From: Lachnospiraceae bacterium
GTDB taxonomy: Bacteria; Bacillota; Clostridia; Lachnospirales; Lachnospiraceae
Length of the DNA: 64,000 nt
Assembly (NCBI GenBank): GCA_017634975.1
Contig: JAGBMJ010000093.1
Coordinates: forward strand, 62,001-126,000
Reading direction: 5' to 3'
Position numbers and translations under genes: made by a program
Notes under the pieces: generated by a model
What the model saw: only the letters and a program-made list of their open reading frames with translations
Told to the model about the DNA's origin: nothing
Database searches by the model: none
Shown: piece after piece, positions 30,132-36,480 of the stretch
How the letters are laid out: each line of letters begins with the position of its first letter
Position numbering within the stretch: the stretch's first letter is position 1

Positions 30132-31309
30132 CAGGTAATCCCTTCTATTTCCTTTATATAGTCAACAAATCTGCCTACCGTCCAAATCCGATCACGCCTG
30201 TCCTTTGGATATGCCGTAATATAAGGCTTTGGCACTACAAGTATAACCTTCTCTGCCTGCATTTCATCCATCTGAGCCGCAGATATGCCCTGCTGCATTG
30301 TGCATAGATATTTGTTCTCATCCCGCAGTCTGTCAGCCTCATTGAGAATCTGACGCCATCTGTCCTTACATGTCGTCTTCGCTGCCAGCGTACAAAGTTT
30401 ATCTATTGCGAATGTCATATCATGATACGCCACTTCTGATGGAAACAGAAAATCTGGTTTTTTATTCCCTTCAGTTGTAGCCTGAGGCGCATATTCTATC
30501 TTATTCTCATCAAATATGGCCGCCAGATGATGCTCCAAGCTTTTTCCGGCTCTACTTTTTCTTCTGTTCAGCACTTGGTTCGCCAGTGCTATGAAGTCAT
30601 CCACTGAGGCAAATCCCTTTGCAACTGTCTCTCCATATCTTGCATGCTCTATAGCCCGGAAAAGCCGATATTCCTCTTCTGTCCACTTCAGCAGCATAGT
30701 ATCAGGATCCGCCAATATCAGATGTCTGTTCAGGTATACCTGGTATTGAATCAGCCTTGCAGCTGATGACATCTCCTGTGATGTTGGAAAATCAACCTTA
30801 AGTCCTCCGATAAAAGTATCAATTGCCTGCTTTTCCATCAGCTCCGGATCAACTCTGTCCAGCTCTATCGGCCTGTTGGTTTCTGCCGGCGTAAGGCCAA
30901 AAGAATCCAGAAACTCCTGTATATCCTCATCTGTATTGAAGAGATATCCATAGTACGATTCTTCTGACTCCTTTATCAAAACAAAAAGAGCGCCGGTATA
31001 TTCCGGCCGGAGAAGTTCAAATCCTCTTCCAAATCCGGTAATCCTCAACTCGTTCTTGCTCTCATACCATGTGAATGTGCAATTTGTCGAAAAATCATCC
31101 TGCCATTTTATTGTTCCCGTCTTCTTAAGAATATGGTTTTCTCTCAGTTCCTGCGCTGTATACAGCATGTCCTTTGCTGTCTTGGATATCAGTATTCCTG
31201 ACTGATGCCCTCCGGTCTCACCACTGTCATTGGCGGACAGGAACTTGCAGTATGCGCTTTTCCCGCTCAGTACTGCCTCAACCGCTTTTGTTACAAGTTC
31301 GTCCATCAT
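30131..31309 (-). CDS. EcoRII-type restriction endonuclease
   Basis: 392 residues, the size of EcoRII. The N-terminal effector-DNA-binding domain carries [14 protein letters not shown] (30-43). The C-terminal PD-(D/E)XK catalytic domain carries GKSLEHH (256-262), KPDFLFP (284-290) and [12 protein letters not shown] (311-322), the family's catalytic pattern. It should cut unmethylated CCWGG and, like EcoRII, may need two sites. Its ATG overlaps the dcm stop (ATGA) and its stop overlaps vsr. Intact, no frameshift. Confidence 0.9.
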
Positions 31310-32532
31310 ACTCCCACCGCCTCTCTGGCCGGGTGTCCTTTTTTAACAGGTACAACCTGACCGACTGATTTTACCGGTTTCGACATTTCTTCTTTTGCCT
31401 CAGTCTTTTTTGCGGTTACCCTGTCCATTTCATTCATTTTTGCGCATACCAGACTCGCCACATTTGCCATCAATGGAACCACAACCGAATTTCCAAACTG
31501 ACGGTATGCCTGGGTATCAGAAACAGGAATCTTGAAATCCTCAGGGAATCCCTGCAGTCTTGCACACTCCCTTGGCGTAAGCCTTCGCGGGTTCTTCCCT
31601 TTCTGCGCTATCAGAATTTCCGAACCGTCCTTGTGATATCTGGCGCTAAGCGTTCTGGACACTCCATCCGGATCCGCAATACCATACCCAAACCCATTAC
31701 CTGCTGCCTTATGTTTAGCTGCGTACCCCTGAAGATAATCCCACAGCTTATCTGAAAGCGTGTACTTATCATCTACATTCTTCTCAAGAATATCGCGCAT
31801 CACAGGCTTTGGATCCGCCGGAGTAATATTAAAATCAAACTTGATATTCTTTCCATACCTTCTTCTGTCAAACCCGACAATCAGAATACGTTCTCTGTGC
31901 TGAGGCACGAAGTTCTGACCATCCAACACCTGATAAAACACCTCATAATCCAGTTCATCTAGTGATTCCGTGATAACCTTAAACGTCCTGCCCCTGTCGT
32001 GGCTGCACAGATTCTTAACATTCTCGAGCATAAATGCCTTCGGGCGCTTCGCCTTCAGTATCCTGCAGATATCAAAGAACAGAGTTCCCTGCGTTTTATC
32101 CTCAAATCCGGTTGCCCTGCCCAGGCTTTGTTTCTTCGATACTCCGGCAATAGAAAATGGCTGGCAAGGAAAACCCGCCACCAATATGTCATGATCAGGG
32201 ATTGTATTCTCGTCTACTTTTGTAATATCACCATCGGGTTGTTCTCCAAAATTTGCAAAGTAAGTCTGCTGACTGTACTTGTTCCATTCATTGGAGTATA
32301 CACAATGCCCTCCTGCACTCTCATATGCCAGCCGCATTCCTCCGATTCCTGCAAATAAATCTATGAAGGTAAAGTCCGCATCCGCGGGGACTTCATTCCT
32401 GTTTTGCTGTTGAAGGAACTGGATAATAGCCGATGAAACGGAATCCTGAACCGAAGAATTCGTGCCATCTGTATAATCTGCCAGTGCCTCATAAACAGCG
32501 TCATCCAATCTTATGTGAACTTGCTTAGCCAT
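31306..32532 (-). CDS. dcm: Dcm-type cytosine-5 methyltransferase with RHH N-terminus
   Basis: 408 residues. Residues 1-42 ([20 protein letters not shown] onward) look like a ribbon-helix-helix DNA-binding domain. The methylase follows: DLFAGIGG (58-65), GFPCQPFS with Cys123, an ENV motif, QHRERI, and a final motif with FGNSVVVP. The paired EcoRII endonuclease and Vsr point to CCWGG as target. A dyad (32548-32563) between the promoter and this gene is well placed for the RHH domain to repress its own operon. AGAGGTGATAAT precedes the ATG. Confidence 0.92.
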
Positions 32533-33317: not shown

Positions 33318-34250
33318 TTACTCTGTGAATAATGCGGTGGAGTAATACCGGTCACCGCTGTCCGGAAGGAGCGCAACGATGGTCTTGCCCTTGTTCTCCG
33401 GCTTCTTAGCCAGTTCGATAGCACCGTAAAGAGCTGCCCCGGAGGAGATACCTACGGAGATACCTTCCTTCTTTGCCAGATATTTTGCGGTTTCAAAAGC
33501 CTTATCATTCGGAGCCTTAAAGACCTCATCGTATACCTTGGTATTCAGTACATCGGGAACAAAACCTGCACCGATTCCCTGGATCTTGTGGCTGCCTGCT
33601 TTGCCTTCGGAAAGTACCGGGCTGTCTGCCGGCTCCAGTGCCACTACTTTTACATTCGGATTCTGCTCCTTTAAGTATTCGCCGGTTCCGGTCACCGTAC
33701 CGCCGGTTCCTACACCTGCGATAAAGATATCTACCTTACCGTCGGTATCCTTCCAAATCTCCGGACCTGTGGTTGCACGATGAACAGCCGGGTTTGCCGG
33801 GTTGATGAACTGTCCCGGGATAAAACTGTTCGGGATCTCCTTTGCCAGTTCCTCTGCCTTGGCGATCGCACCCTTCATGCCCTTCGCTCCTTCGGTCAGC
33901 ACCAGTTCCGCACCGTAAGCCTTTAAGATATTTCTGCGCTCCACGCTCATGGTCTCGGGCATGGTCAGTATGATACGATACCCCTTTGCCGCAGCGATAG
34001 ATGCCAGACCGATACCGGTATTTCCGCTGGTCGGCTCTATGATCACGGAGCCTTCCTTCAGCAGTCCCTTCTCCTCCGCATCTTCGATCATGGATTTTGC
34101 GATACGGTCTTTTACACTTCCTGCCGGATTGAAATACTCCAATTTTACCAGGATCGTTGCTTCCAGTCCCAGCTCTTTTTCGATATTCACAACCTCTACC
34201 AACGGTGTGTTACCGATCAAACCAAGAGTACCTTTGTAAATATTCGCCAT
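33318..34250 (-). CDS. cysK: Cysteine synthase (O-acetylserine sulfhydrylase)
   Basis: 310 residues. PLP enzyme that joins O-acetylserine and sulfide to cysteine. PLP lysine in [11 protein letters not shown], substrate loop [12 protein letters not shown], phosphate-binding [12 protein letters not shown]. It lies 84 bases downstream of metY on the same strand with only a hairpin between, so both are under the Cys-codon leader upstream. AAGG sits nine bases before the ATG. Confidence 0.95.
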
Positions 34251-34334: not shown

Positions 34335-35618
34335 TTATTTTGCAGCTGCAAAGCCGGCTTCAAGATCTGCGATCAGGTCATCCACATGCTCCGTACCGAT
34401 CGACAGACGGATCGTATTCTTGTTGATACCGGTTTCTGCCAGCGCTTCATCGGAAAGCTGGGAGTGCGTGGTAGAATACGGATGGATCACAAGGCTCTTT
34501 ACGTCTGCTACGTTTGCCAGCAGGGAGAAGATCTTCAGGCTGTCGATAAACTTCCAAGCCTCTTCCTGTCCGCCCTTGATATCAAAGGTAAAGATGGAAG
34601 CGCCGCCGTTCGGGAAGTACTTCTTGTACAGCTCATGATCCGGATGATCCGGCAGAGACGGATGATTCACTTTCTCTACCTGCGGATGCTTGGTCAGGTA
34701 TTCCACGATCTTTTTGGTATTCTCCGAGTGACGCTCTACACGCAGGGATAATGTCTCAATACCCTGCAGCAGCAGGAATGCGTTGAACGGAGAGATCGCA
34801 GCGCCGGTGTCACGCAGCAGGATCACACGGATATAGGTAACAAATGCTGCCGGGCCGACTGCCTCAAACAGATTTACGCCGTGATAGCTCGGATTGGGAG
34901 CCGCGATGCCCGGATAGTTGCCGCTTGCTGCCCAGTTAAACTTACCACCATCTACGATGATACCGCCCAGTGAGGTTCCGTGTCCGCCCAGGAACTTGGT
35001 TGCGGAATGAACCACAACATCTGCACCGTGCTCCAGCGGACGGATCAAAAACGGAGTACCGAAGGTATTGTCAACGATCACCGGCAGACCGTGCTTATGC
35101 GCGATCTCTGCGATAGCATCGATATCGGGAATATCACTGTTCGGATTTCCCAGGGTCTCCAGATATACGGCTCTGGTGTTTGCCTTGATCGCACCCTCCA
35201 CCTCAGCCAGATCGTGTACATTTACAAATGTAGTCTCCACACCAAACTGCGGAAGTGTATTGTTCAACAGGTTGTAGCTGCCACCGTAGATCGTCTTCTG
35301 CGCTACGATATGCCCGCCGTTTGCAGCAACTGCCTGGATCGCATAGCTGATCGCTGCTGCACCGGAAGCTACTGCCAGAGCAGCGCTGCCGCCCTCCAAT
35401 GCTGCCACTCTCTTCTCCAGCACATCCTGCGTGGAGTTTGTGATTCTGCCATATACATTACCGCCGGCTGCAAGGCTGAAACGATCTGCTGCATCCTTGC
35501 TGTCGTGGAATACATAAGAAGTGGTCTGGTAAATAGGAACGGCTCTGGAATCGGTCGCCGGGTCTGCCTGCTCCTGTCCTACGTGCAACTGTAATGTTTC
35601 AAATCTGTACTCGCTCAT
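34335..35618 (-). CDS. metY: O-acetylhomoserine sulfhydrylase (MetY type)
   Basis: 427 residues, the MetY rather than MetB length. Cys/Met-metabolism PLP family: ALASGAAAISYA-type entry, VDNTFGTPFLIRPLEHGADVV, and PLP lysine in HSATKFLGGHGTSLGG. It makes homocysteine from O-acetylhomoserine and sulfide, or can act on related thiols. GGAG lies nine bases before the ATG. First full-size gene after the polycysteine leader. Confidence 0.93.
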   Translation of the reverse strand: MSEYRFETLQLHVGQEQADPATDSRAVPIYQTTSYVFHDSKDAADRFSLAAGGNVYGRITNSTQDVLEKRVAALEGGSAALAVASGAAAISYAIQAVAANGGHIVAQKTIYGGSYNLLNNTLPQFGVETTFVNVHDLAEVEGAIKANTRAVYLETLGNPNSDIPDIDAIAEIAHKHGLPVIVDNTFGTPFLIRPLEHGADVVVHSATKFLGGHGTSLGGIIVDGGKFNWAASGNYPGIAAPNPSYHGVNLFEAVGPAAFVTYIRVILLRDTGAAISPFNAFLLLQGIETLSLRVERHSENTKKIVEYLTKHPQVEKVNHPSLPDHPDHELYKKYFPNGGASIFTFDIKGGQEEAWKFIDSLKIFSLLANVADVKSLVIHPYSTTHSQLSDEALAETGINKNTIRLSIGTEHVDDLIADLEAGFAAAK

Positions 35619-35690
35619 TATTATATTCTCCTTTTTCTATTTATTCAATTTAACTTTTCTTTTATGACTGTTTTCTTTTCTACTCTTTTA

Positions 35691-35722
35691 TAAAATAAAA
35701 AACGGGGCATTTGATGCTCCCG
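35691..35722 (-). terminator. Leader terminator before metY
   Basis: Minus-strand stem CGGG-A-GCAT / ATGCCCCG with a CAA loop and one bulged A (35703-35722), then TTTTTTATTTTA (35691-35702). It lies after the leader gene and 73 bases before the metY start, so it must be read through for expression. Its 5' arm (35717-35726) is also complementary to leader codons. Confidence 0.75.
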
Positions 35723-35815
35723 GGCAAAATGACATATCCAACAGATCGGATCGATCTACAAGATCAGGCGTTTGGGCAGATAGCCCTTGCGCCGGTCATC
35801 TTCCATGCCCGGGAG
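35717..35815 (-). promoter_or_regulatory. Antiterminator pairing of the Cys-codon attenuator
   Basis: CTCCCGGGCA (leader codons 20-23, 35806-35815) is an exact 10-base complement of TGCCCGGGAG (35717-35726), which includes the 5' arm of the terminator; ATGC/GCAT can extend it past a bulge. Forming this pairing prevents the terminator. Seen directly in sequence; the regulatory reading is inference. Confidence 0.65.
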
Positions 35816-35874
35816 TATTGCATTCGACAACAGCACATAAGATACATTCGTTTGTTCATTGCAATACCGGCCAT
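35764..35874 (-). CDS. Polycysteine leader peptide of metY-cysK
   Basis: 36 residues, ATG at 35874 with AGGAG six bases upstream (35881-35885), so it should be well translated. It contains LMCCCRMQ: three consecutive Cys codons (TGC TGT TGT, 35827-35835), with one more Cys near the end. The codons just after the Cys run form one arm of an antiterminator. The gene lies between a consensus promoter and an intrinsic terminator ahead of two sulfide-assimilation genes. This is the layout of a classical amino-acid attenuator: ribosomes stalling at Cys codons when cysteinyl-tRNA is short would leave the antiterminator arm free. The peptide itself probably has no other role. Confidence 0.7.
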   Translation of the reverse strand: MAGIAMNKRMYLMCCCRMQYSRAWKMTGARAICPNA

Positions 35875-35928
35875 CTTTTTCTCCTTTCCGATCCTGTTTT
35901 ACAGAGATCCGTTTGTTTCGATGGTGTA

Positions 35929-35957
35929 ACTATATCATTATTCGCCTACTATGTCAA
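35929..35957 (-). promoter_or_regulatory. Promoter of leader-metY-cysK
   Basis: TTGACA (35952-35957), 17 bases, TATAGT (35929-35934) on the minus strand; start about 50 bases before the leader ATG. Confidence 0.85.
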
Positions 35958-35962
35958 TAGGC
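35944..35962. promoter_or_regulatory. Candidate Rrf2-regulator operator at the metY promoter
   Basis: GCCTA-9 bases-TAGGC inverted repeat covering the -35 of the metY promoter. Shares CCTA/TAGG half-sites with the repeat at 35993-36019 over the regulator's own promoter. Confidence 0.45.
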
Positions 35963-35985
35963 TTTATGTATTTTTTTGAAATTTC

Positions 35986-36015
35986 TTGAAATACCTATTT
36001 ACCTTGCGATATAAT
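35986..36015 (+). promoter_or_regulatory. Promoter of the Rrf2-family gene
   Basis: TTGAAA (35986-35991), 18 bases, TATAAT (36010-36015), 18 bases before the ATG. Confidence 0.7.
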
Positions 36016-36019
36016 AGGT
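35993..36019. promoter_or_regulatory. Candidate Rrf2-regulator operator at its own promoter
   Basis: ACCTATT-13 bases-AATAGGT inverted repeat spanning the spacer and -10, suited to autorepression. Confidence 0.45.
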
Positions 36020-36033
36020 TTGCAGGAGGATAA

Positions 36034-36480
36034 ATGCTTATGATCTCAACAAGAGGACGATATGCCCTGCGGGTTCTGATCGATCTCGCGGAAAACGACA
36101 ACGGAAACTATATCCCGCTTAAGGATATTGCCGAACGACAGGAGATCTCCAAAAAATATCTGGAGATCATCGTAAAAGATCTGGTCACACACAAACTGTT
36201 ATCCGGTGCCAGCGGAAAAGGCGGCGGATATAAACTGGTACGCAAGCCGGAAGAATACTCCGTCGGGGAAGTCCTGGAGCTTATGGAAGGTACTCTCTGT
36301 CCGGTTGCCTGTCTGGCGGATCCGGAATATGAATGTTCCCGTAAAGACCACTGTCTGACTCTTCCGATGTGGACGGAGTTTGATACCATGGTGCACGACT
36401 TCTTTAATAGCAGGACGCTGGAAGATCTCATTCATCCGAAAAAGGCTTCCGGCAAACCGAAGGCACCGAAAAAGAGTTAA
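36034..36480 (+). CDS. Rrf2-family transcriptional regulator (CymR/IscR-like)
   Basis: 148 residues. Winged helix start ISTRGRYALRVLIDLAEND, recognition region ISKKYLEIIVKDLVTHKLLSGASGKGGGYKL. Three Cys (CPVACLADPEYEC and later DHCLTL) lie where IscR-type proteins hold an Fe-S cluster, but CymR-type cysteine regulators in Firmicutes act without one, in complex with CysK. With cysK just across the divergent promoter a CymR-like role is attractive (inference). AGGAGG is four bases before the ATG at 36034; a second ATG at 36040 is possible. Confidence 0.85.
   Translation: MLMISTRGRYALRVLIDLAENDNGNYIPLKDIAERQEISKKYLEIIVKDLVTHKLLSGASGKGGGYKLVRKPEEYSVGEVLELMEGTLCPVACLADPEYECSRKDHCLTLPMWTEFDTMVHDFFNSRTLEDLIHPKKASGKPKAPKKS

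Follow-up and report, generated by a model that had tools for sequence, protein, structure and literature searches.

In the attenuators of the trp, his and ilv operons, a leader gene containing codons for the amino acid of the pathway lies before the pathway operon, together with competing antiterminator and terminator structures. A case of leader-peptide attenuation at ilvB is described in PMC11109978; the survey of 50 genomes presented there gives eight uORF candidates and, as far as its main text goes, contains no word beginning with Cys. For cysteine, uORFC-8-2 is described before cysS in Rhodobacterales, with two tandem Cys codons and a terminator, and Cys-tRNA attenuation has been proposed for it (Brewer et al. 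2021, PMC8632094). In the Cys-rich leaders of actinobacteria, the Cys codons are described as lying close to the stop codon and a conserved terminator hairpin as absent (Seliverstov et al. 2005, PMC1262725), and Cys-responsive attenuation by leaderless short ORFs is the subject, according to its title, of a report on mycobacteria (Canestrari et al. 2020). For Clostridia, the control of cysteine genes is described in terms of T-boxes and Rrf2 regulators (PMC2940859, PMC3828012): a Cys T-box of Clostridium perfringens and its relatives, at which uncharged Cys-tRNA relieves premature termination ahead of cysK and related genes (PMC2940859), and CymR/IscR-type Rrf2 regulation of cysteine metabolism (PMC3828012).

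The element analysed here lies in a 64,000-nucleotide stretch of DNA from a Lachnospiraceae bacterium (GCA_017634975.1, contig JAGBMJ010000093.1, positions 62,001 to 126,000), the whole of which is called the window below. No earlier description of this element was found in the main texts of the open-licence literature or in Rfam 15.

Organization of the locus

On the minus strand of the window, a promoter, a leader gene, an antiterminator pairing and a terminator lie, in this order, between the divergent gene of an Rrf2 regulator and metY-cysK. Read along that strand, the -35 with its box, the -10 TATAGT, a ribosome site, the leader ORF with TGC-TGT-TGT, CTCCCGGGCA, 79 nt, TGCCCGGGAG and the terminator follow one another. 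The features, with the basis for each in brackets, are:

36034..36480, plus strand: divergent gene of an Rrf2-family regulator (TIGR00738, above cut-off)
35945..35961, minus strand: box CCTATTGACATAGTAGG over the -35, an inverted repeat and candidate Rrf2/CymR-type operator (conservation upstream of elements)
35957-35952, minus strand: -35 hexamer TTGACA (inside the box CCTATTGACATAGTAGG)
35929..35934, minus strand: -10 hexamer TATAGT, 17 nt from the -35 (sequence reading)
35881..35889, minus strand: Shine-Dalgarno site of the leader gene, GGAAAGGAG (sequence reading)
35764..35874, minus strand: leader peptide gene, ATG to TGA, 36 codons plus stop (ORF; MCC(C)RM..SRA frame in relatives)
35838-35836, minus strand: ATG directly before the Cys codons (sequence reading)
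35827..35835, minus strand: Cys codons TGC TGT TGT, codons 14-16 (sequence; kept in RNA-only matches)
35821..35826, minus strand: CGA-ATG (Arg-Met) after the Cys codons, near-invariant (RNA-only matches)
35806..35815, minus strand: segment 1, the 5' strand of antiterminator helix P1, CTCCCGGGCA, read in frame as Ser-Arg-Ala (covariation)
35795..35799, minus strand: 5' strand of helix P2, ATGAC (family covariation)
35790..35793, minus strand: 5' strand of helix P3, GGCG as folded in the window (window minimum-energy fold; family covariation)
35767..35770, minus strand: 3' strand of helix P3, CGCC as folded in the window (window minimum-energy fold; family covariation)
35729..35733, minus strand: 3' strand of helix P2, GTCAT (family covariation)
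35717..35726, minus strand: segment 3, the 3' strand of P1, TGCCCGGGAG, which also contains the 5' strand of the terminator (covariation)
35691..35722, minus strand: intrinsic terminator CGGGAGCAU-CAA-AUGCCCCG plus U-rich tract (sequence; family recurrence)
34335..35618, minus strand: metY, O-acetylhomoserine/O-acetylserine sulfhydrylase (TIGR01326, E 1.5e-186, above cut-off)
33318..34250, minus strand: cysK, cysteine synthase A (TIGR01139, E 2.5e-138, above cut-off)

These features bear out what an earlier note on this DNA had described: a 36-codon leader gene with a strong ribosome site (ORF 35874-35764, peptide MAGIAMNKRMYLMCCCRMQYSRAWKMTGARAICPNA, site GGAAAGGAG at 35889-35881), three Cys codons in a row (TGC-TGT-TGT, 35835-35827, minus strand) and two exactly complementary segments, CTCCCGGGCA (35815-35806) and TGCCCGGGAG (35726-35717), which are 79 nt apart and had been quoted in the mRNA sense. 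The terminator that it had placed there, with a T-run and a shared 5' arm, was also found, its stem-loop CGGGAGCAU-CAA-AUGCCCCG occupying 35722-35703 and the T-rich stretch 35702-35691, with the metY start about 73 nt beyond. The leader of 231 nt was more stable than its dinucleotide shuffles (fold z = -3.7), none of 200 shuffles being equally stable.

Comparison with Rfam 15 gave no match in the window at the gathering threshold and none in 35640-36040 (401 bases) at E <= 10, and the T-box covariance model (RF00230) likewise gave none at either threshold; elsewhere in the window's genome there were five T-box matches, one of them over the cut-off. The leader peptide matched no NCBIfam family. 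Two more copies of the element are present in the window's genome, on contigs C143 and C119. By eye, the copy on C119 (L190, G000:C119) precedes a lipoprotein gene and that on C143 (L040/L209, G000:C143) precedes the gene of a second Cys/Met PLP-type enzyme. Also by eye, a minus-strand frame of the window at 31306-32532 resembles a DNA cytosine methyltransferase with an extra N-terminal segment of about 50 residues.

Recurrence in other genomes

In named genomes, scanning with the pattern TGYTGYCGAATG-8N-CCGGGC yielded at least 119 stretches. Over all loci there were 135 distinct pattern matches, and those with an arm complementary at 7 or more of 8 positions plus a T-run were taken as copies, giving at least 106. 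The 29 matches failing on the arm or the T-run were left out; they are partly real copies (at contig ends, or with weaker T-runs) and partly chance matches in unrelated phyla. At least 89 of the 106 copies came from named genomes and, among the matches listed, 85 of these 89 were assigned to Clostridia, one record was labelled Coriobacteriia and three had no class. Among the matches listed, 40 named copies were from Lachnospiraceae and 17 from Oscillospiraceae, with others besides, and the carriers were for the most part metagenome assemblies with few cultured strains, among these Clostridium porci WCA-389-WT-23D1 (L144), Butyrivibrio sp. WCD3002 (L158) and Lachnospiraceae bacterium AC2029 (L101). 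Removal of near-duplicates reduced 105 elements to 100; the counts on 106 elements given below for ribosome folding, the SD-like start and the Met before the Cys run were not dereplicated. Searches with the covariance model R1, described below, matched 40 of 250 genomes of the family at E <= 0.01 (33 at E <= 1e-5), and at E <= 1e-4 there were 12 matching genomes among 341 of the class and 5 among 348 of the phylum. The distribution of the element is patchy.

When the leader peptide was used in tblastn against 60 genomes, the window's own included, 34 genomes matched at E <= 10, much of it noise; the same-genus matches read MCCCRM[QRL]xSRA or MCCRM. Nine peptides, selected for having three Cys codons, all shared the preceding M, the following R-M and S-R-A. 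Across 392 genomes of the order, the pattern ATGTGYTGYTGYMGNATG was detected at 9 places in 8 genomes and its reversed control at 2; two of the nine places (L034, L039) are without the arm and were rejected as chance matches. An in-frame start behind an SD-like site, a permissive motif counted without a control, was present in 102 of 106 elements, and 84 of those 102 starts sit 11-14 codons ahead of the Cys pair. Many relatives' leaders (e.g. L006, L007 and L040; not the window copy) terminate in CGA-TGT-TGA, or Arg-Cys-stop, the second Cys codon adjoining the stop.

Covariation in the antiterminator

As loop lengths vary, a comparison of anchored, ungapped columns gave two clear pairs only, one in P1 and one in P2, and a MAFFT alignment (A2) was used instead. 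This alignment contains 93 elements (92 plus the window) and was cut to exclude every Cys codon; 8 of the 100 elements were kept out of it, by length or by choice. RNAalifold on A2 yielded a helix of 10 bp, P1, four pairs of which show compensatory changes, and mutual information indicated P2 (ATGGC with GCCAT) and P3 (GGGGCGU with GCGCCUC). Individual minimum-energy folds contained P1 in 92, P2 in 69 and P3 in 77 of the 93 sequences; in the window, P3 is formed by GGCG with CGCC, in a register shifted relative to the alignment. Taking P1-P3 together over the 93 sequences, 88.3% of cells were paired, against 84.4% in shuffled alignments and 26-52% in slid registers, with 73 double-change cells (24.4 +/- 4.3 when shuffled) and a covariation of 0.195 (0.131 when shuffled). 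None of 500 shuffles reached the observed value on any of the five measures. P2 and P3 are covarying helices of the antiterminator in addition to P1. The conserved residues SRA, MAGA and RL of the leader peptide fall on strands of P1, P2/P3 and P3, respectively, and are therefore explained by RNA pairing.

Two additional pairings were considered. One, CGAAUG with CAUUUG near the 3' arm, came into question because both are conserved, and was rejected by inspection, since the CAUUUG columns vary (column -2 is T in 64 of 100) and follow P1/P2. The other is a protector hairpin between segments 1 and 2 (UCCCGG with CCGGGG), which would be exposed behind a ribosome at the stop codon; it was unsupported, the arm being paired in 69 of 100 elements, not above the control (64%).

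Search with a model lacking the Cys codons

The covariance model R1 was built from A2 and contains neither the Cys codons nor CGA-AUG. From the 52 rows of the family search, 8 weak ones, 2 antisense echoes and 2 own copies already in training were left out, and from the 19 rows of the class search 3 own copies and 1 repeat. Of the 55 matches kept, 7 were identical to training rows, leaving 48 independent matches from 38 genomes, none of them 90% identical to a training row or to one another over 90 nt. In 47 of these 48 there is at least one Cys in the four codons ahead of a fixed ATG, compared with about 5% expected from the codon use of neighbouring genes. The codon background for this figure was taken from the long ORFs of the window and of the 8-kb loci; one based on the downstream genes was set aside, as MetY contains unusually few Cys and Met residues. 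The 48th match, L197 (G614:C48), carries MCMRM five codons further upstream of the arm.

The Cys sensor itself varies codon by codon (MCC, MCCC, MCM, MCMC, MCMCMC and MMC, and further WCC, MCW, CCI, CMH, CMF, CMD and RCG), with toggling between UGU and UGC at the Cys codons and with single-Cys variants present. Missing Cys codons in these RNA-only matches are mostly replaced by Met, as in MCMRM and MCMCMCRM. A CGA codon stands ahead of the fixed ATG in 43 of the 48, while CGA makes up 6.7-6.9% of the Arg codons in the relatives' loci and the window. The arm TCCCGGGC begins 6 nt past the fixed ATG in 38 of the 48, and five of the six bases in between (columns 12-16) are variable.

P1 was paired in 443 of 480 cells of the 48 matches (shuffled mean 420, maximum 429), with 22 double changes (shuffled mean 4.2, maximum 11; 1,000 shuffles). 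This count includes five out-of-register rows (L186, L193, L223, L224, L226), three of which add double changes; without them, 420 of 430 cells were paired (shuffled maximum 411), and 18 of the 43 in-register rows had a double change (shuffled mean 3.3, maximum 9). The double changes are mostly G-C to A-U at arm positions 6 and 8, which hardly vary in the training set because the search pattern fixed the 5' side there. Moreover, in L179 and L185 the 3' strand of the terminator is changed in step (CCCAGGC), so that the third partner also matches, as expected if segments 1 and 4 compete for segment 3.

Three matches to R1 lay in the phylum outside the class: L239, which has CCCCRM, and L240 (E 5e-6) and L241 (E 6e-5), RNA-only matches without a Cys leader that look false. 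Among the 8 weak family rows (E 6e-5 to 8e-3) a leader is clear in L202 and possible in L203, and the rest are without one.

Chance is excluded, as 106 elements, and 48 found without use of the Cys codons, share the Cys codons, the spacing, the two arms and the terminator. The earlier note had read the locus as an attenuator sensing Cys-tRNA, and had stated that relatives lacking a conserved leader frame or conserved Cys codons would refute this reading. What was found is the opposite: the frame, the Cys codons, the distance to the arm and the competing pairings are kept in many Clostridia, and the pairings covary, with compensatory changes. The earlier observation is correct, and what it described is also part of a wider element.

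A box at the promoter and the genes downstream

With up to 4 mismatches allowed, a 17-bp box was found in the 240 nt or so preceding 94 of 103 elements (none in shuffles) and ahead of 37 of the 48 independent matches (1 in shuffles). In the window's genome there are three exact boxes, which are the three attenuator loci; at 2 mismatches, matches in that genome were no more than those of the reversed control. Over 60 genomes, the window's own included, 28 exact boxes were detected in 13 genomes, against 2 for the reversed control, and 22 of the 28 lead into an R1 match (E <= 2e-6), training members among them. The other six were inspected by eye. Rrf2-like genes follow the box at L242 and L265, the latter in relative G028 and without an attenuator; in the same relative an exact box lies directly before cysK (L256) and before metY (L261), in both cases without an attenuator; and at L249 (G007) the box precedes a metY with a degenerate leader. 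L249, L256, L261 and L265 are natural losses in close relatives. In L243, the box at 856-872 precedes an unrelated-looking gene resembling a ThiF/TcdA-type E1-like protein, without an attenuator.

An Rrf2 homologue was present within 1.5 kb upstream of 24 of 91 elements, in divergent orientation in 23. The box, lying over the -35, is probably an Rrf2 operator, and its combination with a divergent Rrf2 gene would fit an autoregulated one. The window protein stays below the equivalog cut-offs of both CymR (NF047409; 88 of 195 bits) and IscR (TIGR02010; 95.1 of 207.55 bits), and by its sequence it is assigned to the Rrf2 superfamily only, as a relative of IscR and CymR. The regulator encoded at 36034-36480 (plus strand) has Cys at 89, 93, 101 and 107, a set that resembles that of the Fe-S binding IscR proteins, though its neighbours are cysteine genes.

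Among 101 first downstream proteins, in family counts that may overlap, there were 58 Cys/Met PLP enzymes, 26 NlpA lipoproteins and 17 family-3 solute-binding proteins (SBP_bac_3), the rest being 3 permeases, 2 PALP proteins, 1 ABC ATPase and 1 M20 peptidase; 58 of the 101 matched the OAH/OAS sulfhydrylase model at E <= 1e-40. Downstream of the 48 independent matches, 25 Cys/Met PLP enzymes, 12 NlpA and 8 solute-binding proteins, 2 ABC ATPases and 1 M20 peptidase were found, together with other families represented once each. A minority of downstream genes is not obviously sulfur-related (PFL-like, short-chain dehydrogenase, cyclase). The MetY of the window has no Cys and one Met in 427 residues, and its CysK no Cys and 5 Met; of 43 full-length MetY sequences, 34 lack Cys altogether and 31 contain a single Met. 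This near-absence of sulfur amino acids from MetY fits synthesis under sulfur starvation.

Ribosome positions and the proposed mode of control

The footprint of a ribosome extends to about +15 from the P site. By this estimate, the edge of a ribosome stalled with a Cys codon in its A site falls just short of the arm. With a ribosome placed at the first Cys codon of the pair, folding gave P1 as the best structure in 97 of 106 elements, and at the second in 98; with the ribosome on the arm, the terminator was best in 95. The antiterminator P1 was also favoured with no ribosome (70 of 106) and when the ribosome had reached the stop codon, leaving the arm uncovered behind it (86 of 106), and termination must therefore depend on timing or on repeated ribosome passage. 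A simple steady-state or equilibrium picture thus appears, from this modelling, to be incomplete, and the off state probably depends on a ribosome occupying the arm while the terminator is being made.

The element is very likely a Cys-responsive, ribosome-mediated transcription attenuator, probably combined with Rrf2-type repression at the promoter. The RNA would start behind the CCTATTGACATAGTAGG promoter/operator, and a ribosome would initiate on the leader gene and reach the Cys codons. If Cys-tRNA is scarce, the ribosome would stall at these codons, just short of CTCCCGGGCA, and the free arm would pair with the later UGCCCGGGAG (P1, with P2 and P3 supporting), consuming the 5' strand of the terminator; with the antiterminator formed, RNA polymerase would continue into metY-cysK. 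If Cys-tRNA is plentiful, the ribosome would come to lie on the arm and block this pairing, the terminator would form and transcription would stop. We infer in this scheme the stalling, the direction of control, the kinetics and the identity of the protein that binds the box.

Discussion

The comparative evidence, drawn from sequence, extends to the leader frame, the Cys codons, the spacing to the arm, the antiterminator, the terminator, the box and the association with sulfur genes. Cys sensing does not account for two features, the nearly invariant CGA-AUG and the Met codon ahead of the Cys run. Each of three ideas would agree with some of this pattern: sensing of Cys and Met jointly, slow decoding of a codon that acts as a brake and keeps ribosomes parked on the arm, or an effect of the nascent peptide. 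That the Met codons beside the Cys codons are sensors too, with starvation for either amino acid stalling the ribosome short of the arm, is possible but rather doubtful. Met stands immediately ahead of the Cys run in 87 of 106 elements, and accounts for 40 of the 964 other residues of the N-terminal part, lost Cys codons mostly become Met in the RNA-only matches, the targets include metY and NlpA-type proteins, and MetY is itself poor in both residues, as the counts above show. However, were the ribosome to stall at the invariant Met that follows CGA, it would lie over part of the arm, and in that fold P1 formed in only 14 of 106 elements; among the copies read, none has Met codons without Cys, and the Met before the run may be a context effect. 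An arrest peptide, with nascent (C)CCRM arresting the ribosome on a ligand such as cysteine and not through tRNA charging, is unlikely. The R-M after Cys is near-invariant (CGA in 43 of 48), and residues behind the sensor should not matter for a plain Cys stall, but the N-terminal residues expected in the exit tunnel are not conserved, the number and order of Cys vary, and the Arg is encoded nearly without exception by CGA, a rare codon, suggesting an effect at the level of the codon or the nucleotides. Folding cannot tell such an arrest from codon stalling, since stopping at R-M when cysteine is high would obey the same logic.

It is quite improbable that stalling promotes termination, that the leader acts on metY translation or that the Rrf2 operator works alone. 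The boxes of G028 directly before cysK (L256) and metY (L261), with no attenuator, do indicate that the box can serve by itself; nevertheless, the antiterminator forms in 97-98 of 106 elements when a ribosome is stalled at the Cys pair, the terminator of the window ends about 73 nt ahead of the metY start, and the compensatory changes in P1 show that the pairing is selected. Hardly credible is a functional Cys-rich microprotein, with a metal or redox role, to which the RNA structures are incidental: the Cys run does lie in a frame that looks translated, but both flanks of the peptide are variable, single-Cys variants exist, and the conserved SRA, MAGA and RL coincide with strands of RNA helices.

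On the preferred reading, that of a Cys-responsive attenuator, control of cysteine genes in many gut and rumen Lachnospiraceae and related families appears to be done by a leader peptide. R1 and the promoter/operator signature can serve as search tools for the sulfur genes of uncultured gut bacteria. The element also offers natural variants in which to see how attenuation is tuned by the distance from codon to arm, by a rare Arg codon and by Met codons, the losses L249, L256 and L261 included, and L197 is a test case for the ruler. More tentatively, and we regard it as rather unlikely as a whole, the locus could be a clostridial sulfur-starvation switch reading Cys-tRNA and Met-tRNA in one leader, with a fixed CGA-AUG ruler, an Rrf2 operator and, as its main product, a MetY cleared of Cys and Met; if true, transcription start and termination answer to sulfur together.

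With CymR/IscR systems, as described, the locus shares an Rrf2 regulator beside cysteine genes and a palindromic promoter box, whereas the window protein lies under both equivalog cut-offs and its box is a candidate operator. The Cys T-box, by its published description, serves the same physiological task in Clostridia, but binds tRNA directly and without a leader peptide, and no T-box or Rfam match was obtained at this element. The actinobacterial leaders, as far as described, likewise have runs of Cys codons before cys operons; in contrast to them, the element here has a strong SD, a terminator and a covarying antiterminator, and in the window the Cys codons are 14-16 of 36, with the terminator downstream. 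From its description, uORFC-8-2 resembles the element in being a uORF with tandem Cys codons and a terminator for which Cys-tRNA attenuation is proposed; that description (PMC8632094) sets it apart as confined to Rhodobacterales, solely before cysS and with its Cys codons within the first stem, whereas here 85 of 89 copies from named genomes are from Clostridia among the matches listed, with PLP enzymes, transporters and cysK downstream.

The trp, his and ilv attenuators have in common with the element a leader with pathway codons, a competing antiterminator and terminator, and a position before the operon. Here, in contrast, the sensor is for Cys, with an in-frame ruler CGA-AUG-NNN-NNN to the arm in most copies; the three-helix antiterminator is partly encoded as Ser-Arg-Ala, Met-Ala-Gly-Ala and Arg-Leu; the 1:2 protector hairpin is not above control; and a conserved promoter/operator box is attached. 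By the features it possesses, the element belongs mechanistically with the leader-peptide attenuators.
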